Positions 11,843 to 55,463 of a stretch of DNA of 64,000 nucleotides are shown here, one piece after another. Origin of the DNA: Branchiostoma floridae (Eukaryota; Chordata; Leptocardii; Amphioxiformes; Branchiostomatidae). The position numbers and the translations under genes are program-made. The stretch covers positions 7,194,995 through 7,258,994 of the forward strand of contig NC_049994.1 of the NCBI RefSeq assembly GCF_000003815.2, read 5' to 3'. Under the pieces are notes generated by a model, which worked only from the letters and a program-made list of their open reading frames with translations, ran no database searches and had not been told where the DNA came from. Position 1 is the first letter of the stretch. Each line of letters starts with the position of its first letter.

Positions 11843-14268
11843 TTTCAGCTAATCCCAAATGAATTTCAATTTAGCAATTTCGTAACATTGACGCGCTATG
11901 ACGATATTCTACTAATACCCTGATGTTCTGAGTTTTAACAGATTTAGTTAGAGTACGTGAATGAATGTGATAGCTGTGTAGAGCACTGTTATCTAAGAGC
12001 CCAGCTGCTAAATATGAAAGTGTTGCTATCTATGAAAACCATATTTAGCCTCTGGCGGTGAAATCCTTAAAGCTTCTTTTTATTAATGTTGTTCTTAGCT
12101 TCAATTAATGTCTGCAAGGTAAATTGGGATATATGATATCTGAACATGGCATCGTCGGTGAATTCTAAACGTTTCGTTTTAATTTTGCTTCAGCTTCGTC
12201 TTCTTTAAAGTTTTCTTTCATAATTGTATAATGTTTCTTAATGTCATGTCACAGTAATTAAATTTGTCACGTAATTGTTTTTGTAGTTGTACAGATGAAC
12301 TAGAGTAAACCCCTTGCAATTTATTTTACACATAAACCAAGATTTTTTTAAGTCGTAAGTAAATGAATACATCATTTCATTTTCATTCTATTTGGTTTAC
12401 CTGGATGTATATACACAGAGTGCATAGCCCTGGATTTCGGGAGTTCCTGAAAACATTGCAATACACAACAATTAAATTTGGCACAATTAGAAAATAGAAA
12501 CAACATTCAGTACAGTCCTATACATTTGTTGCGTTTGTATGATTGTATGTTTGTATGTATGTAGAAGACCAGCGTACCTCGAGAACGCCCGAATTGATTG
12601 TATTGATATTCAGTATGTGAATAGGTCTTGATGAGACCTGGAAATATTAGACTTTGGGCCCCTAAGCGGCCTGTTATGGTACTCCAGCGGAACTTCTGGG
12701 TTTGATATCTTAAATTTTGGCAACGATTTTTGAGTGGTAGACAGCTTTTGCTGCCGAGAGTAAGTGGTATAGGTTTGGGCCAAATAGCGGCTTGTTTGGA
12801 ACTGCAGGGCAGGTTCAGCGTCAGATTTTGAAAGAGAATAACTTAAGAAGGGGTCGACGGATTGTCATGATTTTTTTGGTATGTAGATAGCTTAAATGAC
12901 GCTTGATATAATTACATATTAGTTGTGAAAATTGGGATCTAATTTGCATAATCAAGTAGGAAATTGTTTAAACACGTTCTGTTCCATTATAGGACCATTG
13001 CAACATGTGATATTTGCATAATCAATGAGGACATGCTATAATGTCATTGTGGTAAATGATGGAACTTCTTAATTGTAGCATTTGGAAGTTGTGTATAGGT
13101 CAACATGAGGACCTTATTTGCATAATTGATAACAAACACAATCAATACTGCAGTTGTAAATGTTACAGTCATTTGACGTAGGCGTGGGGTCGTGTAACTC
13201 TAGTTGAAGGGATATTTTGATTAATGTCTTGTAATATATTTGTTTATGGTGGAAAAAACCACAGACGACATAATGAAGATGAGGGGTATCAGTGTTCCCT
13301 TTGGCAGATAAGTTACATGACGTCATAAAGGAATTGCCGGGTCTATTGTGCCCCGTACACACCACATGCCCACACTAACTGCAGTAAGGTACTTTGCCAA
13401 TTACTTTGATTGTATTTTACCAATAAGATAATTCACAGTTCCAAGCGCGCATCCTCAACTCACCTCACTAGTCCTGTAACCCCACCGGCCGTAGGGCAAC
13501 AATACAATGAACATGCGCCTCGGTAAAAGTCTCAGGCCCCTATCTCTTCAACGTAAACTTAGTTTGCGTGTGTGTGTGTGTAGACGTGTTTTGCTGGAAT
13601 GTTTATGTCTTGACCTTTGACATTACCCAGAATCCCTGAAACTGATAAGAAGCTTATTCTAAACATTTCAAACTAGCTGTTTCCATAGTTATGAAGTTTC
13701 CTACCTATTTTGTTGGGAATCTCAATGAAATGTTATGGGTATTTTGATTTCGATCTACGGGATGGAATGTGCCGTGGTATTATGGCCAACTTAATAACAA
13801 GACATGCCATAATTTGCATTGAACTGATTTTCTTTCAATCGTAGGTATCGAAAGGACTCACTTGTTCCCAGGAGAGTGGCAATACAGACAGAGTCCGCCA
13901 GGTGTCTCTTCTGTGCGTTGCCCGCTCACCTTTGGCCCACAAACCGTGAAGGCAATACTACTGTACATGACGGGAGCTTCTGGTGATCACAATCTACGTT
14001 TAAGATATAGAGAATCACCCTTCGGCGTAGGTTTCAATGTCTGTAGAAGTAATGCGGACGCCATCTTGTTTCCAGATTCTATTTTGTACCATAATATATA
14101 AGACCAAACCCATTTTGTAAATGTGTTCAGGAAATTCGAACTATTTCTTACCACATTCGTCGGGAGAATGTTCAATACACAACAAATTATATAATGAGGC
14201 TTTTCTGTGTAATGTCGGAACAGTTCCGTGCAATAAGGACATACAACAATGAAATCAGTAGCTGTGAT
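11843..14268. other. Gene-free stretch with dispersed 'atttgcataatca' repeat
   Basis: From about 12540 to 13140 there is a dispersed repeat with several 'tttgcataatcaatgagga'-type motifs, also found at 22590-22800 and 45818-46075. An open stretch at 13862-14101 has no recognisable domain. No gene called. Confidence 0.5.
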
Positions 14269-14274
14269 TTTATT
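14269..14274 (-). terminator. Candidate poly(A) signal of the minus-strand small membrane protein gene
   Basis: AATAAA on the minus strand, directly beyond the last hairpin-type repeat downstream of the gene ending at 14992. The position mirrors the plus-strand AATAAA at 22414 beyond the other gene's array. Use is inferred. Confidence 0.4.
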
Positions 14275-14665
14275 TTACAGAGGTTCACTCCCCTGGATTT
14301 TTTTAACAGAGGTTTTCTCCCCTGGGCAGTCGTAGTTGTTTCTTTTAAGTACATGTGCGTGGCCTTCTTTCTTCCACGGAGTTTTCTACAGATGTTTTCT
14401 CTCCTGGACAGTCGTAGATCTAGTCTTCTAGTGTTATACATATTCAGCTCCCTTCCTTTCTTCTACAGAGTTTCTTTCCTCCGTTTATTTTTCTACAGAT
14501 ATTTTCTCCTCAGAAAACATATCTTTTTCACAGAGGTATTCTCCGTGGATAGTTGCAGTCTTCAACAAACGTATGGCTTCTTCAGTAGTTCACACTATAG
14601 TTCTTCATGGTATACTCCCTTTGATTTTTTTATACAGAGGTTTACTCCTCTGGGCAGTCGTCAAT
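14275..14665 (-). repeat. Degenerate array of the hairpin core, minus orientation
   Basis: Five clear and two weaker copies of a core that reads on the minus strand about CCAGGGGAGTAAACCTCTG, irregularly spaced (near 14276, 14305, 14380, 14463, 14489, 14527 and 14628). It is the core of the 75-bp satellite at 20131-22310, and both arrays lie immediately downstream, in sense orientation, of the two paralogous small membrane protein genes. Several copies form a 6-bp stem with a 6-nt loop. Confidence 0.8.
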
Positions 14666-14991
14666 ATGTATAAATAAATAGATAACACTTGGTTCCACAG
14701 AATGTTCAACTATAGATTACCATAAATAAACAATGGACAAACCAAAATAAGTTCAAAGTTTTGGGGCCCATTGTTACAAGATAAGTATGGTCCCCTCACG
14801 TGGTTTAGCCCGCCTGCTGAAGCGGTGTACCGGGGTGTGGCGCTTGGAGCCAGCACGTGAGAGTTTAGGGGTTGGATGAGGACCAGTGGTGCCCGGACCA
14901 CTCTACTAGGTAAAGTGCAGCATACCGGGTAACTAAAGGTTCATACCTCTATCCAGAGCCCCTTACACCCTGTCCAGGAATCACATTCAGA
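14666..14991. other. 3' flank of minus gene, SINE-like
   Basis: Likely 3' UTR or flank of the minus-strand gene. The segment 14760-14935 has tRNA/SINE-like text ('gtttagcccgcctgctgaagc', 'gtgcccggaccactctactag') but I found no second copy in the window to confirm it. Confidence 0.35.
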
Positions 14992-16200
14992 TTACAGACC
15001 AATTAACTTTTGTAGGATACGCCAGCCTGATAGAACTTTGACGTTCAGAAGTAGGATACATACGGGCATGAAGAGGTTTTTATGTCTCCAAACTCCCATA
15101 ACGTATCCAATTAAGTCTTTGCAGTAGACAGCATTCAGGACCAGTAGTGCCACTAGGAATAGGATCTTTGGACCAACTGTCGTCTCGCTTTCCCCGTTGT
15201 CGTGTTTAGAACTGTCGTTTGGATCTCTGTCAGTGATGATGTTGACTGTTGACTGATGTCCAGTAGAAACGACAGTGTTCTGAGACCCGACGATTGTGGG
15301 GAGGTGGACGACAGAAGACGCACACATGCACAGCTCACCTGAGGAGGAAAAGTGATTTTAAAAGTCAGTCAATCAAGTAGACCCAAACTACATTCTCATG
15401 AGAAGGAAATGGACTTGGGGGTTTTGTAAACATGGGCCTAGAGACCATACGTAACAATAGCTCTTATCAGGTGTGCGTCATGCGTTGTTCACGTGAACAC
15501 GTGATCAATGACCAATCCATGGCCGTGGTCAAGTTAATATATTTCGTCGGTGAGGCGGATGAAGATAACATCTAAAGCTTCTATACGGTAATGCAATGTA
15601 TTGTTGTTGTTTGAAGAAAACCGGGTAAGGCCTAATCATAAATACACTTTTTTTTTAAAATATGACACCCCCAATTAAAGTTATATTTTTTTGCAGAGTA
15701 TCGGTAAAGCATTTGAACTTGAGAAGACAGGGACGAAACATGACATTTTTTCGTAAGCTCGTAGTGCAGTGAGGCTTCGGTTCGGTTCGCGTATATAGCC
15801 AAGCACATTTTCTCGATAAATGTGCTACTAGTTTACTAGCAGAGGTTTGACTCTTGAACTTTACGTTAGAAGGGCCGCCGGCTTTACTTCACCATCCGAA
15901 ATGCACCCCCTTACGACCTGTCCGAGCTGGGGGTACTACTAGTGAATCCCACTAGTTGCACTAGATGTTGAGGTGAAAAACAAATAATCGGCGTACGTAA
16001 CGATTTAAGAAAATGTAGGGAGTAAACAGGGAACTTTAAAAATGATTTTGTAAATGTAAAAGAAAATGTGCTAGGAATCTGGCCACATACTAAAGACCCC
16101 TACCTTTTGATTCACTGACACTAGATGGAGGCACCATCCTGGAATCGTGAATGTTGTCCGCAGAAAGGCTTCGGCGAAGCATTGGGGGGGATATGGGCAT
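14992..16200 (-). CDS. Small two-helix membrane protein, unknown family (inverted paralogue A)
   Basis: Two coding exons, 16200-16104 and 15338-14992 (stop TAA), join in phase 1 to give 147 aa. The donor is AAAG|GTAGG and the acceptor is a good tract ending TCCTCAG. I do not recognise the family. Visible features: a conserved N-terminal block RRSLSADNIHD, then a short Gln/Asn-Val-rich stretch (GSQNTV...STVNI), then two hydrophobic segments near the C-terminus (ILFLVALLVLNAVY and LFMPVCILLLNV) separated by a charged turn, so probably membrane-anchored. It is a paralogue of the plus-strand gene at 18294-20104, which aligns throughout but has one extra intron. TATA (16299-16293) and a CRE-like TGACGTAA lie about 100 bp upstream. 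Possible RHIM/amyloid-like motif, weak. The gene model is well supported by paralogy; the function is unknown. Confidence 0.8.
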
Positions 16201-16290
16201 TTTGATTTGCTAAGACCAAGAATGTTATATAGAGAAATATAACCTCCTTGCTACGACTGACGACTGACACCGTACATCGTTAGAGCGCTG

Positions 16291-16448
16291 GCTTATATAC
16301 CCGAACTTTACGTCATCTATTTGCGAGAGTTACCAGAGACCAATAGGGTAGCAGATATCTGCATGTTGCCTTGGATACTATACTTCAGATTGACATGAAG
16401 CAAATCTTTTTCACTGGTTCTTCCCAGGGTGCTCTGCCAGGTATTCAT
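16291..16448 (-). promoter_or_regulatory. Promoter of minus small membrane protein gene
   Basis: Reading on the minus strand: TATCCAAGGCAACATGCAGA, ATATCTGC, CTATTGGTC (inverted CCAAT box), then GATGACGTAA (CRE-like, 16308-16315) and TATATAAGC (16299-16291). The same order and nearly the same spacing occur before the plus paralogue. Similarity extends upstream to a shared 'tacctgg', about 150 bp in all. Confidence 0.75.
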
Positions 16449-18059
16449 CTGCCCTGGCTACTGGTCCTTGACAGTCTTCCCGGGGACCAAAACAAGTCCA
16501 AAGTCCTCATGCTGGGCCTATCATTAATTATATGTGTCCTATACAAATCAGTCTAGCTTTTGAAGTTTAGAAAAAACACGTCCATAAAAAGGCTATAAAT
16601 ATGCCAACTCTGTGGCAAAAAATACGACGCCAGGGGGATTTGTTTTTTTTTAGTTTAGTCCGCAATTGATTAAGATTGATTGTGAGTTTCACGCACAACA
16701 ATGTTTTGGTGAATAATTGGTTATGTCGGTGTTTTTCGTGACACCATACACACAGATTTGTTCTTCTTAATTTCTTTATAATTTTCCCGTCTTCACAAGT
16801 ATCTAACTTGTCGATTTTGATAATCAAGTCATGCAGTGTTCAGACCGGGCCGTTTATGTGTACTGCATATTTGTGATTTTTTTTCAATCAAAACATGAAA
16901 CAATCCATCAAACAAATTGTTAATTTCAATGCAACATAAGAGCACACTACACCGAAATTAAAGAGTAGGGGGTTCTTCCCCGTGTGAGTGAATAAAGTTC
17001 ATATTTCCGGATATACAACTCTTCAATACAAGACTGGTGTGTTAAGATGTGGGGCGGTTTACCGGGTATTCAATACAAACAAACGAACAGTCAAACAATA
17101 TGGGCTTCGTTAATCTACGAAAGACATTGACAAAATTATGTTATTACAAAACGTACAGGTCCTTCAGTAGGAAATTAAAACACTTCGTCAAAGTCTGGTC
17201 ATTAGTTGGTATGCTGATAAAATTTCGAACTCCCCTTGATTCCGATGCAATGTCCTTGGGAAGTTTCCTCATTCTATTCACGTGACCAAACTCGGAAAAG
17301 AGGCCGAGGTCCCGTTTTGGAGGATAGCCACACCTCAACACATTAAAGAACCCACCTCATTGAAAAGTATAGGGGTCCTTCCCGGTGTGAGTGGAAAAAT
17401 AAATCTGTCCGGGTATGCAGCTTGTATCTTTCAGTACAAACCAGACGCGGATGTTATGCCTTAAGGCGGTTTACCGGGTAGCTAATACAAACAAGCAAAC
17501 AAGCCAGCAAACAACAAACAAACAGACAAACAGCATGGGCACCCTTAAACTATGGTGCTGTTATTACACTCAAAACGTATAAGTTAATCAGTATGAGTTT
17601 TTTTACCAATTTACCACAATCTTGTTATCAGTTGGCAATATGTCGATAACCTTTGGACCCCCCCCCCCTTACAAACATGATCTTTGCACTTCAATAACTA
17701 ACAACTATACACATAGCACCAGCTATGAAATTTAAAATGGGTACTTTGAACTTGTCATTGTCAAGAAAACTGCATTATTGTGAGTGCTATGGGTGAAAAT
17801 TGAAAAACACCAATGTCACCTACCCTACAATATACACTACAATATGCAGATACCTGGGACACACAGACACACACAAACACATACACACACACACACGCAC
17901 ACACAGAAAGACGCACATACACACACACACACATGGTCTTTTCTCACTTAAACAGTTACAAGGATTTGTATAGTACACGTATACACGTAGCATGGTGATT
18001 TTGACTTGTTTTTTCCCGCCAGAGAACTACATGGCGTTAACAAGTAGTCTGGACAGGTA
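16449..18059. other. Spacer between the divergent paralogues
   Basis: Intergenic region between the two promoters. It holds two copies of a dispersed repeat (16930-17530), a (CA)n run at about 17862-17933, and no recognised exon. Confidence 0.5.
16930..17530. mobile_element. Two copies of a SINE-like repeat
   Basis: Copies at about 16935-17115 and 17330-17530 share 'attaaag', 'gtaggggttcttcccggtgtgagtg'-type text, 'ggcggtttaccgggta' and a (CAAA)n tail. Related fragments are at 39115-39215 and about 49420-49560. Family inferred from copy number only. Confidence 0.65.
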
Positions 18060-18194
18060 AGTACCTGGGAAAGTACCATGGGAACGATATTTGTACATGA
18101 TGTCAACCGTATCCAAGACAACATACACATATCTGCGTCCCCATTGGTCCCTGATGGCCATATCAAACAGATGACGTAATGAAGAGTATAAAAG
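18060..18194 (+). promoter_or_regulatory. Promoter of plus small membrane protein gene
   Basis: Contains TATCCAAGACAACATACACA, ATATCTGC, CATTGGTCC (inverted CCAAT box at 18143), GATGACGTAA (CRE-like core 18172-18179) and TATAAAAG (18187-18194), 100 bp before the ATG. The block matches the reverse complement of 16291-16448 motif for motif. Confidence 0.8.
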
Positions 18195-18293
18195 CGAAGG
18201 CCAGACCAATTTGCGGTACAGTCTTCAGTTAAATCTAACTAGGTATAATCTGTTAGCAGCCCCTCCCCCCCACCCCCAAAAAAGAAAAAAAAA

Positions 18294-20104
18294 ATGCCCC
18301 GTATCCCAGCGATTAGTGAGCTACGTCGAAGTCTTTCTGCAGACAACATTCACGATCTCAAGATGGTGCCATCATCTAGTGTCGGTGAAGTGGAAGGTCA
18401 GAAACTTGACTTGAAAATAGTTTTTTTGTTTCGCAACAGGTTTTGTTGCCGCCATAGTTGGGGCGGAGCCAGAACCGTACAGAGAAGGTGTGTTTTTAGT
18501 GTATGATCTGTATGATCATCATTATGATTTTATGCTTCCTTTCTTACCTCGGGAGTCCGTCCACAGCATAATGATGAATTTCTTATTCAATGTAGGTTTC
18601 TGAAAAGAGTGTCTAGGTCTTCTCAACACGTTAACTTTTGTTGACTTCTTGTTCCCCTTCCTGTATTGTGCCCCATATCTCGTTACCTGCACCGCCATAT
18701 TTGTTTTTCGCCCCTTGATTGCAAGCGGACAATGTTTGCCGTGCTACAGTGTTGTCGGTCAAAAGCGGAACTTGTGGTCTGAATCAAGAGTTCGTTCTTT
18801 ACTTTGTGCTTGGTACTTGGTTAGGAATGAGACCTTATTCTATATACTGTACGACCAAGTAGACTAATTCATTGTAAGAAAGTCTTGTAAAAACTTAATA
18901 AAAGTTAAAAACAAGTCCATGACTTTGAAATAAAGTGTATAAAGATGCATTGGCAAAACATGATTATAAATGACTTGTATGACGTTAGGTATGACTAGAC
19001 AGCCAACTTCGTACGCAAATAATACTTGTTTGTTTCGCTCTTAGCCGGATACCTGTTAAACTTAAATACAGATGCCAGCACTATGGAACAGTGTTTATAT
19101 AATTATATAGCTTATCGTAGAACGTCCATAAGACAATGAGCATGAAAAAGAGGCACTGGGCCAGGTGATATGTTCAGTTTACATTGATTTCAGGAGAGAT
19201 GCGTCAGCGTACGCCATCTTCGCCATCTACCGTCTTCGGGTCTCAGAACGTTGTCATAAATAATGCAGGTTCAGGATCTCTGACAGTCAACATCACTGGC
19301 ATGGACAACGAACCACATGAGAGGTACATTTACTTGTTACGAGACATAATTGTGTTAAATGTTAGAATTATATGCAACCGAGGTACATGTACGAACTAAT
19401 GAATATGATGCAAACTGCGCATTTAATTTGGGGTTCCCGTTGCATTTTGCTAAAATGTTGTTCCTGTTCCCTGTCTGGAATAGCATATTATTCAATCAGA
19501 GATGTTACTTCCAGAATTATTGTAACCTCCCTAACTGAATTGTAAGTTATGAACATAATTGATTAGGAAATTTTATGACTTAAGTGCTTACATAATGGGA
19601 CTTGTAATAAGAATGTACATATGTAAGTAAGTCATCTATAGAAATACCAGTCATATGTATACATATATAGACCTGACTGGCAAAATTATTGCAAACGTGT
19701 CATGTGTGAGTTATTTGCATAGATAGTTTATTTCATGTAGGTATGAGGTACCCTAACTTTTGTTTTACAGTGCAAGACTATACAAAAGTATCATTTGATA
19801 TTCATTGAGACCAATACTTTAATAGACAATGTAGTGGCATATAATAACGTGCAAATTTGTCCTGTGCTTAAGACTTGAAGCTGATGCCAGTATCAACAAC
19901 GATGAATCCGAAGAACAGAAAAGACCGAACAAGACGAAGAATATCCTTCTTATGGCACTAATGGTCCTGAATGTTGTCTACAGGAGAGACTTATTAGGGT
20001 ATGCGATGACAATTGTACACCATACAGATGTCATAATACCTGTTTTTATTTGTATCGTGAATGTACTAGTTGTCCTATGTGTACTAGGAAGATTTAGACA
20101 CTAA
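18294..20104 (+). CDS. Small two-helix membrane protein, unknown family (inverted paralogue B)
   Basis: Three exons, 18294-18396, 19194-19323 and 19873-20104 (TAA), join in phases 1 and 2 to give 154 aa. All junctions are GT-AG (donors GGTCAG and GGTACA; acceptors TTTCAG and CTTAAG). The ATG aligns with that of the minus paralogue. Features: a basic N-terminal block RRSLSADNIHD with an RSxS phospho-site look; a middle exon with VFGSQNVVIN and SLTVNI, resembling but not matching the RHIM core (G-x-x-N-x-hydrophobic); an acidic/basic linker; and two hydrophobic segments, ILLMALMVLNVVY and a 20-residue one from VIIPVF to the C-terminal RFRH. Likely membrane protein, topology unknown. The intron between exons 2 and 3 is absent from the paralogue. 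A 75-bp satellite starts 26 bp after the stop. Function not assigned. Confidence 0.8.
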
Positions 20105-20130
20105 AAACTGAAAGTGAAAGTGCGCATTGT

Positions 20131-22310
20131 TAAGGGGAGTAAACCCCTTTAAAAATCCCTGTGAACAACGATTTATATTGAAGTCATGAAGTATCGTCCA
20201 GGGGAGTAAACCTCTATAGAAAAAAACACAGTGTAACATGGATTTATGCTATTTGAAGTCACGAAGTATCGTCCAGGGGAGTAAACCTCTATAGAAAAAA
20301 TCACAGTGTAACATGGATTTATGCTATTTGAAGTCACGAAGTATCGTCCAGGGGAGTAAACCTCTATAGAAAAAATCACAGTGTAACATGGATTTATGCT
20401 ATTTGAAGTCACGAAGTATCGTCCAGGGGAGTAAACCTCTATAGAAAAAATCACAGTGTAACATGGATTTATGCTATTTGAAGTCACGAAGTATCGTCCA
20501 GGGGAGTAAACCTCTATAGAAAAAATCACAGTGTAACATGGATTTATGCTATTTGAAGTCACGAAGTATCGTCCAGGGGAGTAAACCTCTATAGAAAAAA
20601 TCACAGTGTAACATGGATTTATGCTATTTGAAGTCACGAAGTATCGTCCAGGGGAGTAAACCTCTATAGAAAAAATCACAGTGTAACATGGATTTATGCT
20701 ATTTGAAGTCACGAAGTATTGTCCAGGGGAGTAAACCTCTGTAGAAAAAATCACATTCTACTATGGATTTATATCCTTTGAAGTCATGAAGTATTGTCCA
20801 GGGGAGTAAACCTCTGTAGAAAAAATCACATTCTACTATGGATTTATATCCTTTGAAGTCATGAAGTATTGTCCAGGGGAGTAAACCTCTGTAGAAAAAA
20901 TCACAGTGTAACATGGATTTATGCTATTTGAAGTCACGAAGTATTGTCCAGGGGAGTAAACCTCTGTAAAAAAAATCACAGTGTAACATGGATTTATGCT
21001 ATTTGAAGTCACGAAGCCTTGTCCAGGGGAGTAAACCTCTGTAGAAAAAATCACAGTGTAACATGGATTTATACTATTTGAAGTCACGAAGTATTGTCCA
21101 GGGGAGTAAACCTCTGTAGAAAAAATCACATTCTACTATGGATTTATATCCTTTGAAGTCATGAAGTATTGTCCAGGGGAGTAAACCTCTGTAGAAAAAA
21201 TCACAGTGTAACATGGATTTATGCTATTTGAAGTCACGAAGCCTTGTCCAGGGGAGTAAACCTCTGTAGGAAAAATCACAGTGTAACATGGATTTATACT
21301 ATTTGAAGTCACGAAGTATTGTCCAGGGGAGTAAACCTCTGTAGAAAAAATCACATTCTACTATGGATTTATATCCTTTGAAGTCATGAAGTATTGTCCA
21401 GGGGAGTAAACCTCTGTAGAAAAAATCACAGTGTAACATGGATTTATGCTATTTGAAGTCACGAAGTATTGTCCAGGGGAGTAAACCTCTGTAGAAAAAA
21501 TCACATTCTACTATGGATTTATATCCTTTGAAGTCATGAAGTATTGTCCAGGGGAGTAAACCTCTGTAGAAAAAATCACAGTGTAACATGGATTTATGCT
21601 ATTTGAAGTCACGAAGTATTGTCCAGGGGAGTAAACCTCTGTAGAAAAAATCACAGTGTAACATGGGTTTATGCTATTTGAAGTCACGAAGTATTGTCCA
21701 GGGGAGTAAACCTCTGTAGAAAAAATCACATTCTACTATGGATTTATATCCTTTGAAGTCACGAAGTATTGTCCAGGGGAGTAAACCTCTGTAGAAAAAA
21801 TCACATTCTACTATGGATTTATATCCTTTGAAGTCATGAAGTATTGTCCAGGGGAGTAAACCTCTGTAGAAAAAATCACAGTGTAACATGGATTTATGCT
21901 ATTTGAAGTCACGAAGTATCGTCCAGTGGAGTAAACCTCTGTAGAAAAAATCACAGTGTAACATGGATTTATGCTATTTGAAGTCACGAAGCCTTGTCCA
22001 GGGGAGTAAACCTCTGTAGAAAAGAAACACAGTGAAACATGGATTTATGCTATTTGAAGTCACGAAGCCTTGTCCAGGGGAGTAAACCTCTGTAGAAAAA
22101 ATCACAGTGTAATATGGATTTATGCTATTTGAAGTCACGAAGTATCGTCCAGTGGAGTAAACCTCTGTAGAAAAAATCACAGTGTAACATGGATTTATGC
22201 TATTTGAAGTCACGAAGCCTTGTCCAGGGGAGTAAACCTCTGTAGAAAAGAAACACAGTGAAACATGGATTTATAATATTTGAAGTCATGAAAAAAAAAC
22301 TGTCTAGGGG
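20131..22310 (+). repeat. 75-bp satellite array, about 28 units, with hairpin core
   Basis: Units of 75 bp from 20201 to 22229 share AGGGGAGTAAACCTCT followed by an A-run. Two main subtypes exist: 'cacagtgtaacatgg...gctatttg' and 'cacattctactatgg...tcctttg'. The first seven units are nearly identical; later ones alternate, with a trimer repeated at 20951-21175 and 21176-21400. Degenerate half-units flank the array (20131 and 22300). Because 75 is a multiple of 3, long open frames appear on the minus strand (25-residue periodic peptide); I treat these as artefacts. The array probably lies in the 3' UTR of the gene ending at 20104. Confidence 0.95.
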
Positions 22311-22413
22311 AGTTAATGTCTTCAATTTATGGGATGATATACTGAGAACTTTGCTGAAATTATGAACAACTGTCTAGTTGATGAAACCCATGAACGAAAT
22401 CAGACTGGCCGTG

Positions 22414-22419
22414 AATAAA
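22414..22419 (+). terminator. Candidate poly(A) signal beyond the satellite
   Basis: AATAAA about 100 bp after the last repeat. If used, the plus gene's 3' UTR would be about 2.3 kb and contain the whole array. No other AATAAA is seen between the stop codon and here. Confidence 0.4.
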
Positions 22420-22528
22420 AATGAACATGTATAGAACTGACAGGCTATTCGTTCATTTCTTTATCTTAAACATTCCTTCTTACTAATAAGGCTTTTTTGT
22501 ATCTATCTAAGTATATTAACCTATATAC

Positions 22529-22579
<51 letters not shown>

Positions 22580-22845
22580 TGTGTAGGGGCTAGCGTAACA
22601 GTATAAACATAAATCATGCAAATTATAATTAGGATCTCATGCACATAATTTGTTAGAAAATGCATGCTATAATAGCTTCCTTTGCGATGTCTTTTTTAAT
22701 TTGAACATATTGTTATCTAAGTGGACAAAATGATCAGCTGATATAATTTATGACGACCTCATTTGCATATTCAATGAGAAACGTTTATAATAGGTCACTC
22801 GTCACTCACAAGAGACCGTTTTTTGTCAAAAGTACGCTTTTTTTC
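22420..22845. repeat. (GT)n microsatellite and 'tttgcat' dispersed repeat
   Basis: A (GT)n run at about 22530-22585 is followed by the dispersed repeat with 'catttgcatattcaatgaga' seen also at 12540-13140 and 45818-46075. Confidence 0.75.
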
Positions 22846-26921: not shown

Positions 26922-27018
26922 TTTCACCAAGGAGGTTAAATAAAGAAGGCCTTCTTTATTTAACCTCCTTGGAGGTTAAATAAAGAAGGCCTTCTTTATT
27001 TAACCTCCTTGGTTTCAC
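26922..27018. mobile_element. Double perfect palindrome, possible tiny MITE
   Basis: Two tandem 40-bp units (26931-26970 and 26971-27010), each a perfect inverted repeat centred on GAAGGCCTTC between GGAGGTTAAATAAAGAA and its complement. TTTCAC occurs at 26922-26927 and 27013-27018 as a possible 6-bp target duplication. A lone CCTCCTTGG lies at 27118. Confidence 0.8.
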
Positions 27019-30072: not shown

Positions 30073-31089
30073 CGCATCCCACTTGAAGATAAAACAAAAA
30101 AGTGACTTAAAATACTGTAGATACACATAGTATCGCGGTAGTTTTATATGTAAGGGAAAAGTGGTGTTTGAAATAGCAGTAAATGCAGTACAGAAATCAC
30201 ACATTGGAAACGCATATTTACCACATAAAACTAGTAAATAAAACAAATGCGAAAGTACGGGGATTTACAGTAAAATTTGATTGATTGATCACATAACGCT
30301 GGGAGGTCCACCTGATAACAACCGTACATGTGACACGTGCCTTTGGCCTCAATTCTTCACAAAACCGCCCGTGGCCTATGGATAGTGTTTTTGCTGTGAT
30401 TGACAGCTTGCGTGGACGACAACGTGAGAGATCCCTGAGCACAGTGAATGGGCAGCTAAATATAATTTGCGCTGTCCTAAGCTAGCTCAAAGCAGATGTT
30501 GGGGTAGGACATACATAGATACACGTGCGTTGTAGCATACTCGTTTACATACTTGGGACATCGTAAATGAATCCCTTTCCAAAGATTCTCCAACAAACAC
30601 GCATCCCCACAGTGAGAAAATCACAACAGTGACTGAAAATGTTATGATTTTCCCCCTCAACATTTATTGGGAGAACAGTGCTGCTCTACAATATAACGAA
30701 TCAACTAAGACCTTATTGTACATATATGCCCATTGTGTTAAGTACAGGTCGCCACAAATGATATATAGTTTACAGGTACATGATATAACGTTATAATGTC
30801 TAGCTAATACAAGACTTATATTCTACTAGGTGCCTTTTCAATATAGTCCGCTTTTGTTGGACAAAGGCGTTTTAGGACGAAATTGCAGACTGTAAAATCT
30901 AACTTGTACATGACATTTCTTTTTTTTTTTTTGTTTCACAGAAAACTGTTGGAGGCCAAGAGGACCAAAACAGACGATATTTTGAAGATGGAGTGCTGAC
31001 ACTTTAGTTGCTTACGTCACATTTATTCGCTCTCGTGCATAAAAAAACTCCCCCAAAGACAATTTTGACCTGGTCAATGTTGTAAAAAA
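30073..31089 (+). other. 5' flank and 5' UTR exon of the LRR receptor
   Basis: A strong acceptor (long T-run, TTTCACAG ending at 30941) marks the start of the exon that carries the whole coding region, so the gene has at least one upstream non-coding exon. I did not find the first exon or a TATA box with confidence. Confidence 0.5.
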
Positions 31090-34000
31090 ATGTTCGTTAT
31101 GAGAAACTCTTTCGCGGTAGCAATACTGCTGATGGTGGCTATGCTCAGCAAGGCAGCCGAGTATTGTCCATCCGTCTGCCGTTGCTATGGCAACCGCGCA
31201 CACTGCGCCCATGCAGACCTGACCGAAATTCCCGCCAATTTTTCCCAGAACACCGTCTACCTACATCTCGAAGGGAACAACATATCGTCTGTTTCCAAGA
31301 CCCGCCTAGCCCGTATGACGTCACTCCGTCAGCTATACCTCATGAATAACCGAATCACCGATCGGGGAGTTCCGTCGGACGCCTTCGTGTCCAATCGGAA
31401 CCTTCGGCTGCTCGATCTGACCGAAAACCTCCTGACGGCGGTACCGCGAGGGCTCATGGGACTGTGGCAACTTGGTCTAGCAAATAACAAAATCAACAGG
31501 ATCCCAAGAGGAACTCTGTACCCGAGACTTATAGGAATCGCAAAGATACATCTAGAGGGAAATTATCTAACCAACGACGAAATTTCTCCCAGAGAGCTAT
31601 CCGGTTTACACACATTACAACAAGTGTTTCTGTCAGACAACCGACTGAGAGAAATTCCGACTTTTAGATCAGCTAGGCTGAACCATTTGTACATAGGGGG
31701 GAACAACATTTCTCGGATTCTACCCGACACGTTTAACGGTGTAACGCGTTTGTTTTATCTCGATTTAAGCCGTAATAGTCTTGACAATCCTGGGATCGAG
31801 ACTGGTGCCATGAATCCGCTCTCGTACCTGTTGTATCTATGGCTTCGGGAGAATAAACTCACTCGGGTCCCATCGGGCTTACCACGGTCTGTAAAGAAGC
31901 TCCACCTAGAGGGCAATCTCATCACTGCAGTTGAATCCAACGCATTCACCGGTATGACGCGGCTTCGATATCTGTATCTTTCAAACAACAGCATTGACGT
32001 GATAGAACCGGGAGCATTTACAGGACTTGGTGGGCTTCAGTATCTAGAACTCTCAGGTAACAAGTTGCAACAACTCACCAACGGTTCATTCTTGGGACTT
32101 TCACAACTAAGTGTACTAATCATGGAGAACTGTAATATCACAGTCATGCACAAGGGGGCGTTTGAAGGCTTGCAGGAAGTCACCACACTTGATCTTGCTC
32201 ACTCCCGTATCGAGATCATTCAAGATGACGCCTTTGTCGGCTTGATTGATGTAAAGACCCTCCGACTCGAGCGCAACAGAATCCGATCTCTGTCCAAAAA
32301 TGCCTTTAAAGGTTTGTCAGCAGTGACCTCTATTAACCTTGCCTACAACAGAATATATGACGTTGAAAATGGCGCGTTTGTGGGAGTCGACTATCTTCGC
32401 AACCTGGATCTCACCGGAAATAGACTGACGTCACTTCCTGCCGGGCTCGAAGACATGCGATCACTACGAAGCCTCGTTCTCACCAACAACAGCATCACAG
32501 ATATTCCTGACGACATGCCTCCCAACACCGTGTCTGTTCTTACTTTAAGTTCCAACCCTCTTGGAAACGCACGTCTTAGCAGGCTCGCGAACATCTTCCC
32601 TCAGTTATCTTCCCTCTATCTTGCCGACGTTGGGTTACAAACAGTTCAAGAAGACGACTTCAAAGGAATGTCAAACTTGCAGCTGTTAAACCTTGACGAT
32701 AACAACTTGTCTGAAATACCTGGCCGGCCGTTTGACTCCTTACCAAGTCTGTCTCGTATTGACATTCGGAACAATCTCCTTACCACAGTGCCCATCGCCC
32801 TACAGAATCTGACTACCATCCAAACATTGTCTTTGAGTGGAAACCAGATTTCAGCCTTAAACAATGATTCATTTCAAGGTCTGACTAATATACGGGCGTT
32901 GTTTCTATCAGACAACAATGTAACGGAAATTGAGTCCGGCGTTTTTAAACTGATGGACCGCATCTTTCGGATATTTCTCGATGGAAACGTCAAACTTAAA
33001 ACAGTTGATCTGAACACGTTTCGGGTGCCAAGTCTGAGATATGTCTACCTCCAGAATTCAGGCATCGAAACCATTTATCGCGGACAGCCAGAAGAGGATC
33101 TTCCGCCATTGCAGACGATGGAACTTCGCGGCAACCCTTTGAACTGTGACTGTCGTTTGGGATGGATGCTGACGTCGATCATTATCAAACCTGACGTCAC
33201 CTGCTTTAAACCTAGTGACCTGCGTGGACTGGCAGTGAAAAACCTTTTTGATGACGATTTTATCTGCCCAGATCCGTCAAGTTTTGTGAGCACCACTACC
33301 TCGTCTTTAGGTCAAACGTCATTTCCTGTGACCCAAACAGCAAGCACAGCAGTCCAGGCTACCACAACTGAGAAACGTACTACTTCAACAACAAAGCTAA
33401 CGTCAAAGAAAACAACTGACACCACTCAACACTCTAGCCCTCAACAAACGTCCTCACAGCCATCTACCGTCATCCCTTGCACCTTGGAGTGCCAAAATGG
33501 CGGCCAGTGCGTTGTCATGGCAACAAACGCTCAGGAGTGTCGATGTGAGGTTGGATTCACTGGACGGCATTGCGAAACTCCCAATCAAGAGGAAGACATT
33601 ACAGTCACAGAAATCAACGACACAGCACTTAAGATCACGTGGTCTTCTCCAGTCGAAGACGTTCCTTACAAGATATCTGTGAGAGAGAATGATGACGACG
33701 CGTTTAAAGAAGAGACAATCCTTCCTCCAGGCCTGTCTGAATATATACTTAAAGATCTTAATCCAGATATGCAGTATATTGTGTGTATTACGCCTGTCAA
33801 GGAAGACCTAAAATACGTTATACCAATTTCAAATGGACGGTGTCATAAGGTCACCGTGCATGCGCAGTCGTCTCACGCGGGGAAGCCTGGGAAGGGGACA
33901 GCGTTCGGGTTGACAGTGGTCGCCATTTGCGTGCTTCTGGTATGCGCAGTTCTTGGAGTCATCTTCTACAGGAGAAAGAAACGCAGACAACTAGAAGAAC

Positions 34001-34209
34001 GGGAGGTTTTCCCAAAACCTGAAGAAGACGATCACGAGCTTCAGGAGTTGAACAACCTTCGGGAACAATTTGTGCCAGACGTCGTCATACATGCAAAAGA
34101 TGCGTCAAACTACGTACGACTTGAAGACGAAGATAAAGACCTTAAGAAAGATAACGTGTCAGCTGAAAAGTTAGGCAACTATGTGAAACTAACAGAGCCT
34201 GTCGATTAA
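31090..34209 (+). CDS. Vasorin-like LRR-EGF-FN3 transmembrane receptor
   Basis: A 1039-aa type I membrane protein in one exon. Order: signal peptide (1 to about 23), cysteine LRRNT (CPSVCRC, from about 26), roughly two dozen leucine-rich repeats (about 55-680), LRRCT (NPLNCDCRLGWM onwards, about 681-730), Ser/Thr-rich stalk (about 731-795, probably O-glycosylated), one EGF domain (about 797-830, ending CRCEVGFTGRHC), one fibronectin III domain (about 836-925), a transmembrane helix (about 937-959), an RRKKRR stop-transfer, and an 80-residue acidic tail. The tail carries two similar tyrosine motifs, SNYVRLED and GNYVKLTE. The domain order matches vertebrate vasorin, but the LRR array is about twice as long. 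Role by family: cell-surface binding of extracellular ligands; the ligand is unknown. The start follows an in-frame stop and precedes a good signal peptide. Confidence 0.93.
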   Translation: MFVMRNSFAVAILLMVAMLSKAAEYCPSVCRCYGNRAHCAHADLTEIPANFSQNTVYLHLEGNNISSVSKTRLARMTSLRQLYLMNNRITDRGVPSDAFVSNRNLRLLDLTENLLTAVPRGLMGLWQLGLANNKINRIPRGTLYPRLIGIAKIHLEGNYLTNDEISPRELSGLHTLQQVFLSDNRLREIPTFRSARLNHLYIGGNNISRILPDTFNGVTRLFYLDLSRNSLDNPGIETGAMNPLSYLLYLWLRENKLTRVPSGLPRSVKKLHLEGNLITAVESNAFTGMTRLRYLYLSNNSIDVIEPGAFTGLGGLQYLELSGNKLQQLTNGSFLGLSQLSVLIMENCNITVMHKGAFEGLQEVTTLDLAHSRIEIIQDDAFVGLIDVKTLRLERNRIRSLSKNAFKGLSAVTSINLAYNRIYDVENGAFVGVDYLRNLDLTGNRLTSLPAGLEDMRSLRSLVLTNNSITDIPDDMPPNTVSVLTLSSNPLGNARLSRLANIFPQLSSLYLADVGLQTVQEDDFKGMSNLQLLNLDDNNLSEIPGRPFDSLPSLSRIDIRNNLLTTVPIALQNLTTIQTLSLSGNQISALNNDSFQGLTNIRALFLSDNNVTEIESGVFKLMDRIFRIFLDGNVKLKTVDLNTFRVPSLRYVYLQNSGIETIYRGQPEEDLPPLQTMELRGNPLNCDCRLGWMLTSIIIKPDVTCFKPSDLRGLAVKNLFDDDFICPDPSSFVSTTTSSLGQTSFPVTQTASTAVQATTTEKRTTSTTKLTSKKTTDTTQHSSPQQTSSQPSTVIPCTLECQNGGQCVVMATNAQECRCEVGFTGRHCETPNQEEDITVTEINDTALKITWSSPVEDVPYKISVRENDDDAFKEETILPPGLSEYILKDLNPDMQYIVCITPVKEDLKYVIPISNGRCHKVTVHAQSSHAGKPGKGTAFGLTVVAICVLLVCAVLGVIFYRRKKRRQLEEREVFPKPEEDDHELQELNNLREQFVPDVVIHAKDASNYVRLEDEDKDLKKDNVSAEKLGNYVKLTEPVD

Positions 34210-43482: not shown

Positions 43483-46400
43483 ATGCCGGCTGTTAATTCT
43501 CTCAACGTCTCCTTCGAGAAGAACATGGATGTCTTTCAAGCTGGACAAGTCGTCAGGGGACAGGTGGATGTGGATCTTAAGGAGGACATGAAGATGAGAG
43601 GTGATTCTTAGATCGAAGTCTTCAAGTAGACAGTGGTAAGATCGTGGAGGGGGGGGGGGGGATAGATAATTTTCTTTAGACACGTACAGGGCGATACGCC
43701 AGGACCATTACTTGCCACGCCTGAGAGGAATGTCGTATCTTTGTTCAACTTGAAAACATGTTTTTCTTCGCTTGTATTTCCAGGCATCAACATAACACTG
43801 AAAGGCTCTGCAAAGGTTCATTGGACGGTTCACACAGGCAAAACTACGATCTATTACTCCGGCAGGGAAACTTACTTCGACAACACAGTGACACTCTGGG
43901 GCCCAGGTAAGGCACCTTCTACATTCACGTATGGGTACATGTACCCTGGTCAGGCATATAAGGCTTTGGTACATGTCTGTCCCGTAAGAAAGTAAAGTAG
44001 TCATCCTCAATTCAGGTACAGCAGGGTGCTTTTATATGTTTCTAGAAGTAATGCAATGTGGTTTCTTTACGGCTCGCGATTTTCAACGATGTATATAGGT
44101 TCTCCTATGCCGGGAAAGAAATTTGCCGAGGAAGAGAGTTTGCCGTGGAAAGAAGTTTGCCCCGCTCGATGTTTGCGACGGAGGCTAGTGTGTCACGCCA
44201 TAAGTCTGTTCACCAAGTATGCAATTCAAAAATAAAAAATAAAGACGTGATATTTTCCCCTCACGTGTGTAGGTCAGGCCCAGGGTGGCGACCACCCCGT
44301 GCTGGCGGCGGGTAAGCACACCTTCCCGTTCCAGTACCAGCTGCCCAGCTCCGGTCTGCCCTCCTCCATCGAGGGCTGGTACGGCTACGTGCGCTACCGC
44401 GCCAAGGCCGTCATCGACAGGCCCTGGAAGTTCGACAAGACGGCAACGAAATTCTTCACCGTGTTGGACATGTACGATCTGAACGAGGACCCAGAAGCGA
44501 TGGTAAGTAAACAACGCTTGATAGATGTAAGGTAGCGGTCAGACGAACGTGTCTATATTTACAAATTCATTCTTATGGTTTAGGCAGAGTCTGCGGAAAA
44601 TGTTGTATTTTACTTTGACCTTTACTGTTTATTGAACCGAGAAAAAGATTTCATCGGAGGCAAACTTTACCTTAAACAAGAATGTAGATTCAAAACTCAT
44701 ACAGCCTGTGTGTGTGTGTGTGTTTTGGGGGGGGGGGGGGGGGGTTGTGTCACACTTATGCGTAGGGACGATACAAAAGGTACAATGTTGTTTCTTGACG
44801 TTTTCTTGCTCAATATTTTTTTCAAGACGATACCAACTGCCGAAGAGTCCAAGAAGCTTGGCGTCTGGCCCTTCGCTTCTGACCCTATCGAAGTTCACCT
44901 GCAGACGGACCGGGGTGCGTACTGTCCGGGAGAGACCATCAGGCTCAGCGGGACCATAAAGAACGGAAGCGGCACCGACATCAAGGAAACTACCGTCCAG
45001 ATCCGACAGGTATGTGGAAACAGTTGTACACATTTGCAACCTACTGTATATGCATAAATGCCTATGATCCACTCCTTACTGAGTCACGTGTTCTATCTGC
45101 ATAACGTGACGACACGACAGTAGTGGATTGTTCATTCCTTCACAAAGACTGGTGTTGGCCAATCTCAGCATTTTGTGTTGGATATTGGAGTTTAACTAGA
45201 TCAATGATATATGCATTGAGTAGGGCATTGAAAACAGGAAACCAGATAAGCTTTAAAAGCCTGCCCCAAGCCCTTTCAGGGACCTTTGAGTTTACTTCCG
45301 GTCTGTCTCCCATGTGGGCCTAGCATGTGAAAGTAAGTGTGAAAACCGAACGTTCCAAATTAACACTGTATGGCAAATATATCCCCACTTAAACACATGT
45401 TTTTCAACTTTCTGAGTATTGATCTATAATATACTACACTCTGTAATGGTAATGCACAATGGTAAAGAAACCACTTATTCATTGTAAGAATTTTTACATG
45501 TCTACATCTCTTCTTAAAGCTTATTACTTGTTTTCTTTACCCACAGAGAGTGACATTCATCGCTACTAGTCCGCACAAGAGCAAAAGAAACAGCCGAAGC
45601 ACTCTGAGTGAAATCAAAGCTTACGGCTGTAAGAGTAAAGACACGGCTGACCTGAGCGGCATCAGTATCCAGGTTCCCGCCATCCCGCCTTCGTCTCAGC
45701 GGTACTGTAACGTCATCGACGTTGTCTACAAGCTGAAGGTACGAACAAAGTACAGAAAAAGATATATCCTAAACAAGAAGTCTAAGATGGGTTCGTGATG
45801 TAAGTTTTTTTTTGTGTGTGTGCTCAGAACATAAAGGTTCCGGGTTCTAGTCCTACCATGTCTTGAGAAAAGCACTTATTATAATAAATGTAATGCTTTC
45901 TATGGTACATTTTTTTTCAAACAGACGACATACATAACTCAAAAAGAGAGAATTTAGTAAGTTATGCACATTAAGAAGTAATTTGCATAATCAAGTCGGA
46001 AATGATATAACTCCATGGTGGTAATTGAGGCTCTTATTTGCATAAACAATGAGAACATTTGTAATAGGTTAGCAGTAAAGGAACTCTTTTTTTTTCGTTC
46101 ACCTTAAGTTCACCGTGAACATCCCCGGACTCCATAGCGACATGGAAGTGGACGTGCCCATCACCATTGGATCCATCCCACTCAGGAGCTATTACCCACA
46201 AGCCCCTTCGTTCCCGTTACATCCGGTGGAGCAGCAGGCGCCGCCTTCCCAGGGTGCTTTGTACCCGGATCTCGGTTTTGCTCAGTGGACGTACCAGGGA
46301 TCCACCGACCCAAGCGCACCTCGTAAGTAATGCTTTTGACCGTCTAGAGTCTTCTGTATTGTCTTCATTTGGGAACCATACACAGAGGCTTTTAGGTACA

Positions 46401-52250: not shown

Positions 52251-53165
52251 AGAAAATGACGACTGATTGGCCTGTGGTCTGTCCTTCCCGTGCCGCGGTA
52301 GCGCTGGTCAACAGCCAATCACGTCGCCCCCTGCGGTCAAGAAGCAACGTGACTGGCTCATGACTTCTCAGCTAACAACAGGAGTGGTAGTTTTTGATTG
52401 GCTGACAGAGGAACGCGGGTCGGTACTCCTAATCTCCAGGCAGAACCTACTGTATCTAATGCACACTTTTAGGCCAACTACCCTCTACTAAGCTTTCCCA
52501 GCTTTTGATACTACCTTAATTATGCTACCGTAGAACTTGTTTAGAGATTAGTTGCTCCAGGGTCGTTACTGGGGACATCTTTATTGATTCTTCATTTATT
52601 CAACGTATCTCTATCTCAATTTTTGACAGGCCAGAGTCAATCCGGAGGTCACCCTATTTTGAAGGCAGGTCGCCTTCCCCTTCAAGTACGAGCTTCCCAG
52701 CACAGGGCTGCCCACATCGTTCGAGGGTTGCCACGGAGGCGTGCGCTATTACGCAAAGGCCACCATTGACCGGCCCAACGCGTTCGACAAGACCCTGAAG
52801 AAATACTTCACTGTGTTGGACATGTACGATCTGAACGAGGACCCGGATGCAACGGTAAATGAGAGTTCGAAGACCTCATACCTCCGTGACATATTGCAGA
52901 GTCTCCAAGACCAGTCCCTCTGTCCAGGGACGGGTATTTGCGTATTGGGATGGACAAAAATTTCATCAGCCCGTCAAAGAATCTGAACTTCATGATATGA
53001 AATTGATTAAATTGGCTCCCAACAGTGAGTAAGGGATTGAAAAAAATGCTGGAGAAAGCTGTGATCTTATGTCTTATTAATTGAACTTCGCTTCCTGTAA
53101 CTCTGCCCATCACATCTTGCCACTCTGTGGTGAGACGTGCTGAACTAAAAATGCATAGATAGTAG

Positions 53166-53672: not shown

Positions 53673-55463
53673 CACCAGACCATTTACGCCTTGTCTCTCG
53701 GAATTTTTTCAAAGAGTATCTACCATATACAGCATTCACTTATTTGTTGTTGAACACCAGGAAGACATATGATAGGCTGATGTATGTGAGGATCTGATTT
53801 TTCATTATACCATTTTTTGCTCCCCAGACAACAGGAAGTGCTGAGGACTCCAAGAAGCTTGGCGTCTGGCACTTCGCTTCTGACCCCATCGAAGTTCACG
53901 TCCAGACGGACCGGGGTGCGTAACTGTCCGGGGGAGATGATCCGTCTGAGCGGTGTCCTCAAGAACGGCAGTGGCACCGACATCAAGGAGACAACAGTGC
54001 AACTGCGACAGGTGACTAAAGAATCTTGTACCCCTGTCACATTTGGCGAAAATCGATCGGACGACGATTCTGGGGCAATCGCCCGATCCTCGCTTATAAT
54101 AATAACTTTATTGCACAACAATTGTACAAGGTGCAAAGTATGACTTATATGTGACAGGGACGGTTTTCAGGTGAAAAATACGCGCAACCCTCTGTCGATC
54201 TTGAATATGGCCGATCTGCCATCGATACGCCCGAAGATCGTGGATAATGTGACAGGGGTTTAATCACATTTGTCGTACGATCGTCGCACGATCACAACCT
54301 GAAACCAGTCGTAGGATAATCGTGCAAGTGTCGTATATGGTTCATCTGTGTGCGACACTTGTTACCAAACAGGCTCTTTTCTAGTTTCTTGTCGACTGTT
54401 GTCTCTGTCATAGCCTGCAGCTTGGAAATCTTTGTAAAATCGTACTGTCGAGACTTACGACAAATGTGACCTTGCCATAAATACCTTCTTACATTGGGGA
54501 ACAATTTTTTACATCCCTTGATTCAATATTAAAAGGAAGGTTTGGTCAGTCCTCTGACCCTTCTCAAGTGGAAATGACCCGAGTCCAATATCACGTGACC
54601 CAAAATTACAAGAAAATATGACGTCACAGCGGGTCAAAGGTGCTAGGAAGTCGTTTTCGGCCTCCGTCTCTGTTAATCGGTGGTCAATGGGCTTCTGACT
54701 GATATAAGACTCACATTTTGTAAACAATGATGCTACTTTTTCACCACAGAAAGTGACGTCCATTGCCGACTCGCCTCACAAGATGAAAAGAAGCGACCGA
54801 ACGACGCTGAGTGAAATCAAGGCTCTGGGCTGCAAGGGTAAGGAATCAGCTGACCTGAGTGGTATCACCATTCAGGTTCCCTCCATCCCGCCTTCGTCTC
54901 AGCGCTACTGTAACGTCATCGACATTATCTACAAGCTGAAGGTAATCAGAAATACCGAAAGTAATCAGAGATACAGAAATACCGAAAACTAGAAATTCTA
55001 TATCTTATACACGTGATTACGTGAAATATTCATTTTTTTTGTATTTTCGATTATTTTGCATTATTTCGACTTCGTCGCTGTTCTTGTTTTGCATCCGGCA
55101 TGGTTCCCACAAGGCAACAGACAGCAGGGAATTGCAGACAGGAAAAGAGATAACCTTTGATACTCTACTCGGGAACATTGAACATTGAACAAGATGAACG
55201 GGTACCTTTCTTCTTGATAGCGTCCCCCACGGGTCTATCACACCTAAAACACACAGGAAAACAGAAACACGAAAAACAATGCATATATGCGCAGTGCAGT
55301 GCCATGCCTTGTGCGTAACATGTCAAAGTTGAAGGTCCCTGAGACATAAACAAACACGTCTTGGCATTAACAAAGCATGGTCTAGACAAAGAATGTTTAC
55401 AAGGTAGGAGCTTTCACCTTTGACCTCTCCCATGCGCAGGTGGAAACGTGAACCTACTTTTAC

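Follow-up and report, generated by a model that had tools for sequence, protein, structure and literature searches.

Facing genes A and B and their products

We analysed two small genes, A and B, that lie head to head in a 64,000-nucleotide stretch of Branchiostoma floridae DNA (contig NC_049994.1, positions 7,194,995 to 7,258,994, forward strand; hereafter the window, numbered from its first letter), together with their promoters and a hairpin repeat found 3' of each. Gene A (16200-14992, minus strand) was modelled from sequence as two exons encoding 147 amino acids, with the ATG at 16200 and the stop codon at 14992-14994. The model of gene B (18294-20104, plus strand) comprises three exons encoding 154 amino acids, from the ATG at 18294 to the stop codon at 20102-20104. 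Both frames are intact, and joining the exons at their GT/AG junctions yields products of these lengths. Exon 1 of gene A (16104..16200, minus strand, 97 nt) starts with the ATG, carries the LRRSLSADNIHD block and ends at the donor AAG/GTAGGG, while exon 2 (14992..15338, minus strand) holds a GSQN segment, two hydrophobic stretches and the stop codon. In gene B, exon 1 (18294..18396, plus strand) is 103 nt long, the GSQN segment lies in the middle exon (19194..19323, plus strand), and the two hydrophobic stretches and the stop codon lie in the last exon (19873..20104, plus strand). Intron 1 is in phase 1 in both genes; the second intron of the B model, before the last exon, has no counterpart in A. 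A possible optional exon of gene B (18440..18487, plus strand, 48 nt) is open in frame, with AG/GT borders as its sole support.

An earlier note had described the two genes as alignable along their full length. BLASTP aligned residues 1-135 of A with residues 1-145 of B (64 of 147 columns identical, 44%, with 14 gaps), which covers nearly the whole length and leaves out final stretches of about 10 residues that are unlike. The shared blocks RRSLSADNIHD, GSQN.V, TVNI and VLN.VY..DL.GY stood, and the S. that had been placed ahead of TVNI needed a gap. The Smith-Waterman score was 236, against a mean of 30.3 and a maximum of 61 for 2000 shuffles. Taken alone, the N-terminal and C-terminal parts scored 104 and 109, respectively (0/2000 shuffles as high for either), and the middle part was weaker (54; 1/2000). 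Exon 1 DNA was 86% identical over 70 bp, and no alignment was left between the introns (best E 0.036). The similarity is not confined to a repeat. No third copy of the protein was found by tblastn within the 64 kb (best other match E 0.51).

Two C-terminal hydrophobic stretches were seen in each protein (best 19-residue means of 2.16 and 1.55 in A, and 1.46 and 3.24 in B), and a crude 19-residue hydropathy measure gave no hydrophobic N-terminal stretch in either. This suggests two-helix membrane proteins, in which the C-terminal helices would anchor the protein in the membrane and the N-terminal part would be flexible. The conserved head LRRSLSADNIHD may be a docking or phosphorylation site. 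The earlier note had not recognised the family, and we likewise found no Pfam family for A or B with an E limit of 10 (few matches above ~0.1 pass the program's filters) and no match among NCBIfam or PDB sequences. Two short peptide patterns picked out 40 stretches in viral contigs and 57 in prokaryote genome contigs, none of which tblastn confirmed; the exact 29-base hairpin pattern was absent from the viral contigs, and plasmids held no relatives. These viral, prokaryote and plasmid negatives say little about animals, the family searches having taken in no animal genome or proteome. The peptide SLSADNIHD was absent from the literature searched and, among the matches listed, nothing dealt with this gene pair or array.

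The middle segments (TIVGSQNTVV in A, TVFGSQNVVI in B) could be taken for a RHIM-type amyloid motif, which would make the proteins membrane-anchored partners of RHIM proteins. The wider RHIM pattern is hydrophobic-G-x-x-N-x-V, and both proteins have it, inside an N/S/G-rich stretch. RHIM proteins are reported in Branchiostoma (PMC9444067, PMC12119088). The defining tetrad, as given in the former, is (V/I)-Q-(V/I/L/C)-G (PMC9444067); TIVG of A is wrong at two of the four positions and TVFG of B at three. The natural variants quoted from the latter (VQFG, LQIG, VQSG, CQIG and TQIG) all retain the Q (PMC12119088), which is missing from both tetrads here. Pfam found neither RHIM nor a domain of any other kind. 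RHIM membership was rejected because the core tetrad is not that of TIVG or TVFG, and we regard a RHIM identity as very unlikely.

Promoters and 3' hairpins

The promoter core of gene A (16256..16378, minus strand) contains TATCCAAG, CAACAT, ATATCTGC, ATTGG, TGACGT, TATATAA and TCAGT. The core of gene B (18109..18229, plus strand) keeps the element order of A, with TATAAAA in place of TATATAA. We take ATTGG to be an inverted CCAAT and TGACGT to be CRE-like, the names CCAAT, CRE, TATA and initiator being our own assignments without a matrix. Upstream DNA aligned over 123 bp at 72% identity (E 2e-12) and over another 45 bp at 76% (E 0.004), in agreement with the earlier claim of a promoter shared in the same order. 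At E up to 0.1, each promoter matched nothing in the window beyond itself and the other. The Smith-Waterman score of the pair was 76, compared with a mean of 17.8 and a maximum of 30 for 1000 random window segments outside 13500-22600. Five elements (TATCCAAG, CAACAT, ATATCTGC, ATTGG and TGACGT) have identical mutual spacing over 62 bp, each lying exactly 11 bases apart in the two promoters; for the TATA-like element the offset is 12, one more than for these five. At the synonymous divergence (dS) of 0.73-0.81 between the genes, neutral sites would be expected to show 50-53% identity. The promoters have thus probably changed more slowly than neutral sites, the 72% being the figure for the best-aligned stretch.

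By the consensus that we assumed, an RFX-type X-box is present with one mismatch in each promoter (GTATCCAAGGCAAC in A, GTATCCAAGACAAC in B). The window held 22 matches at ≤1 mismatch versus 15 expected; 9/100 shuffles reached 22, which makes the X-box a mere lead. The sequence ATGACGTAA occurs five times in the window (0.7 expected), two of the five in the A and B promoters. The spacer between the genes had been described as filled with short interspersed nuclear elements. This was not confirmed: one pair of direct repeats (16957-17089 and 17359-17501, ~140 bp, 70% identity) and a CA microsatellite (17859-17933) were seen, neither shown to be such an element.

The hairpin unit, CAGRGG-AGTAAA-CCTCTG, is a palindrome with a 6-bp stem and a 6-nt loop. 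It has 33 matches in the 64 kb at ≤3 mismatches, versus 0.03 expected in shuffles, and none lies outside the 3' regions of A and B. All 33 are in gene sense, four behind A and 29 behind B, so the same repeat does follow each gene as had been proposed. The four A copies (14278-14295, 14307-14324, 14389-14406 and 14635-14652) are irregularly spaced within 14269..14661 (minus strand), where more decayed copies were discerned by eye. The 29 B copies (20132-22242) belong to an array at 20132..22292 (plus strand), in which a minisatellite of 28.2 tandem 75-bp units (20178-22292, 93% matches) contains two intermixed unit subtypes with near-identical runs. Antisense open frames cross this array (for example 20173-20757, minus strand), with up to 194 amino acids of a 25-residue repeat; they are likely a side effect of a unit length divisible by three.

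The 18-bp hairpin core carries 0 to 1 mismatch in three A copies. Two of the A copies share a 48-bp stretch that is 90% alike, an A copy and a B unit share 36 bp at 94% identity, and the best A copies match B along no more than 28-41 bp of the repeat unit of 75 bp. Such likeness may reflect either selection on the hairpin or recent copying and conversion. Beyond the last A hairpin, an AATAAA in gene sense starts after 4 bases (14274, minus strand); a second lies at 14489 (minus strand). In gene B, the AATAAA at 22414..22419 (plus strand) starts 172 bases past the last hairpin and is the only AATAAA or ATTAAA from the stop codon to 22700. As both genes have an AATAAA beyond their hairpins, the arrays are probably within the 3' untranslated regions (UTRs), which would follow if each mRNA ended at that signal.

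Folding and pair counts are suggestive of an RNA hairpin and no more. Over nine distinct copies, 92.6% of cells were paired (5/500 shuffles as high). Change on both sides of the stem was seen once among the nine, in the first B copy (56/500 as high). The count used nine of ten distinct hairpins, listed by a rule (≤3 mismatches, or 5/6 pairs) that favours paired copies. It excluded the decayed A copies seen by eye and a copy at 14951, in which all six pairs form despite six mismatches, probably by chance. Rfam returned no family in the 64 kb at gathering score. Within 14200-22450 only SCARNA7 appeared, inside the spacer (E 0.85), and no convincing RNA family was found.

Origin of the gene pair and of the array

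Homology in opposite orientation extends over nearly the whole gene and into non-coding flank, as in inverted paralogues. The phase 1 intron and the aligned promoters are kept in both copies, which points to copying at the DNA level rather than to a retro-copy. All parts are homologous and agree in order and orientation, promoter spacing is retained, and silent change exceeds replacement change; from this we conclude, with good confidence, that the pair arose long ago, when a complete gene cassette was duplicated in inverted orientation at the DNA level. This would have left two divergent paralogues, both probably still making protein. Duplication of the whole cassette, the earlier proposal, remains the simplest account of the aligned promoter, first-intron position, coding sequence and 3' hairpins. 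It would have copied the small gene along with its promoter and hairpin-bearing 3' region, after which each gene would be driven by a promoter of the TATA type that has CCAAT- and CRE-like sites. The least certain part is any role of the hairpins as protein-binding sites, together with the history of the array; unequal exchange or slippage may have enlarged it in B, and the array of the ancestor may have decayed in A.

The proportion of silent differences (pS) exceeded that of replacement differences (pN) both over 137 codons (0.50 versus 0.32; bootstrap share at or below zero 0.001) and over the 101 well-aligned codons (0.44 versus 0.27; share 0.010). With a dS of ~0.7-0.8 between the genes, four estimates placed the ratio of replacement to silent divergence (dN/dS) at 0.5-0.6. 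Judged by these counts, constraint on the coding sequence is real but modest. A dN/dS of this size would also suit decaying pseudogenes at one or both loci, as would the differing C-termini, the unshared intron and some weak splice sites. We consider such decay unlikely, since neither frame is broken, the junctions are GT/AG, pS exceeds pN and promoter elements are retained in both copies. A foldback-type transposon, with the hairpin arrays as its tandem-repeat inverted ends and the gene pair as cargo, would likewise leave the duplicated region flanked on either side by inverted arrays, as seen here. That origin is very improbable. Promoters and exons have also been copied in inverted form, as gene duplication explains, and the hairpin has no further copy in the 64 kb. 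Pfam searches of nine chosen stretches, with most open reading frames of the window outside the scan, gave no transposase and one reverse transcriptase.

Several observations weigh against two working copies of a duplicated cassette with selected 3' hairpins. In gene B, GTCAGA is a weak-looking donor and CTTAAG a weak-looking acceptor, and the modest constraint indicated by dN/dS belongs here as well. The TCAGT offset is uneven (-63 and -56 in A versus -69 in B), a CCAAT at -88 is present in B only, and the promoter identity comes from the best-aligning stretch, with elements picked by eye from the alignment. The first hydrophobic stretch of B is weak, and A has a minor hydropathy peak (1.12) near residue 33. 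At the 3' end, the AATAAA at 14489 precedes three of the four best A hairpins, making an earlier end of the A mRNA possible. The two A copies that are 90% alike could stem from recent copying rather than selection. Local mean pair probability reached at least 0.5 in 19/29 B and 3/4 A copies, figures that carry no shuffled control; covariation is weak, and some of the counted copies were chosen for pairing.

For the array, as distinct from the gene duplication, we lean slightly towards an ordinary minisatellite without a role, in which a palindrome beside the ancestral gene was copied along and then expanded in B. The 28 B units in two mixed subtypes with near-identical runs fit this account, as does a copy number as far apart as 4 in A and 29 in B. 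So do the 48-bp likeness of two A copies, by which turnover may continue in A, and the weak covariation and lack of an Rfam match. It sits less well with a core that keeps 0 to 1 mismatch in three A copies despite irregular spacing, with A-to-B matches limited to 28-41 bp of the unit, and with the position of AATAAA, which lies past the hairpins of A and of B alike. Like minisatellites in or near 3' UTRs, the 75-bp tandem array of B, with its two subtypes, precedes a poly(A) signal; unlike them, each unit centres on a stem-loop palindrome that is also found beside a diverged paralogue.

It is a tentative possibility that the hairpins are protein-binding sites setting mRNA stability or location. 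Similarly speculative is that CAGRGG-AGTAAA-CCTCTG controls an unnamed animal gene family at the post-transcriptional level and has been retained next to both paralogues for this, the 29 copies of B titrating or strongly recruiting an RNA-binding partner. If the hairpins do act in the mRNA, the pair would be a natural copy-number experiment, with ~4 versus 29 sites; otherwise, it is one more nameless family among unnamed animal genes. Exons, promoter spacing and the 3' palindrome have outlasted the introns, which marks out non-coding parts that may matter. The A/B pair resembles head-to-head paralogues from inverted segmental duplication in its facing promoters and its shared first-intron position and flanks, and differs from them in its old divergence and in its 3' hairpin repeat, with 28 tandem units in one copy. 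The duplication is genuine and old and mostly ordinary genome evolution; the one-sided hairpin expansion is its unusual part.

Neighbouring sequences in the window

Seven of the nine stretches chosen for Pfam matched at E up to 0.01, and one gave only a weak match, below the cut-off. The matches include leucine-rich repeats with fibronectin type III, a rhodopsin-type receptor, EF-hands, arrestin domains and a reverse transcriptase, a set in keeping with an animal genome. The reverse transcriptase lies in 55769-57778 (plus strand), where two open stretches in one frame are separated by a single stop codon; the first matches RVT_1 (E 1.7e-11), and the locus resembles a long interspersed nuclear element. 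Arrestin_C was found at 44866-45054 and Arrestin_N at 52663-52983 (both plus strand). A further stretch at 53865-54140 (plus strand) appears by eye to be a copy of 44866-45054, although its sole Pfam result was a sub-threshold phage tail match; perhaps these are duplicated arrestin-domain genes ~9 kb apart. A 1040-amino-acid open frame at 31087-34206 (plus strand) encodes many leucine-rich repeats and a fibronectin type III domain, along with a weak EGF match below the cut-off; a hydrophobic stretch was discerned by eye towards its end. At 26931-27012, a 40-bp unit that can be read as a palindrome is present in two identical copies.

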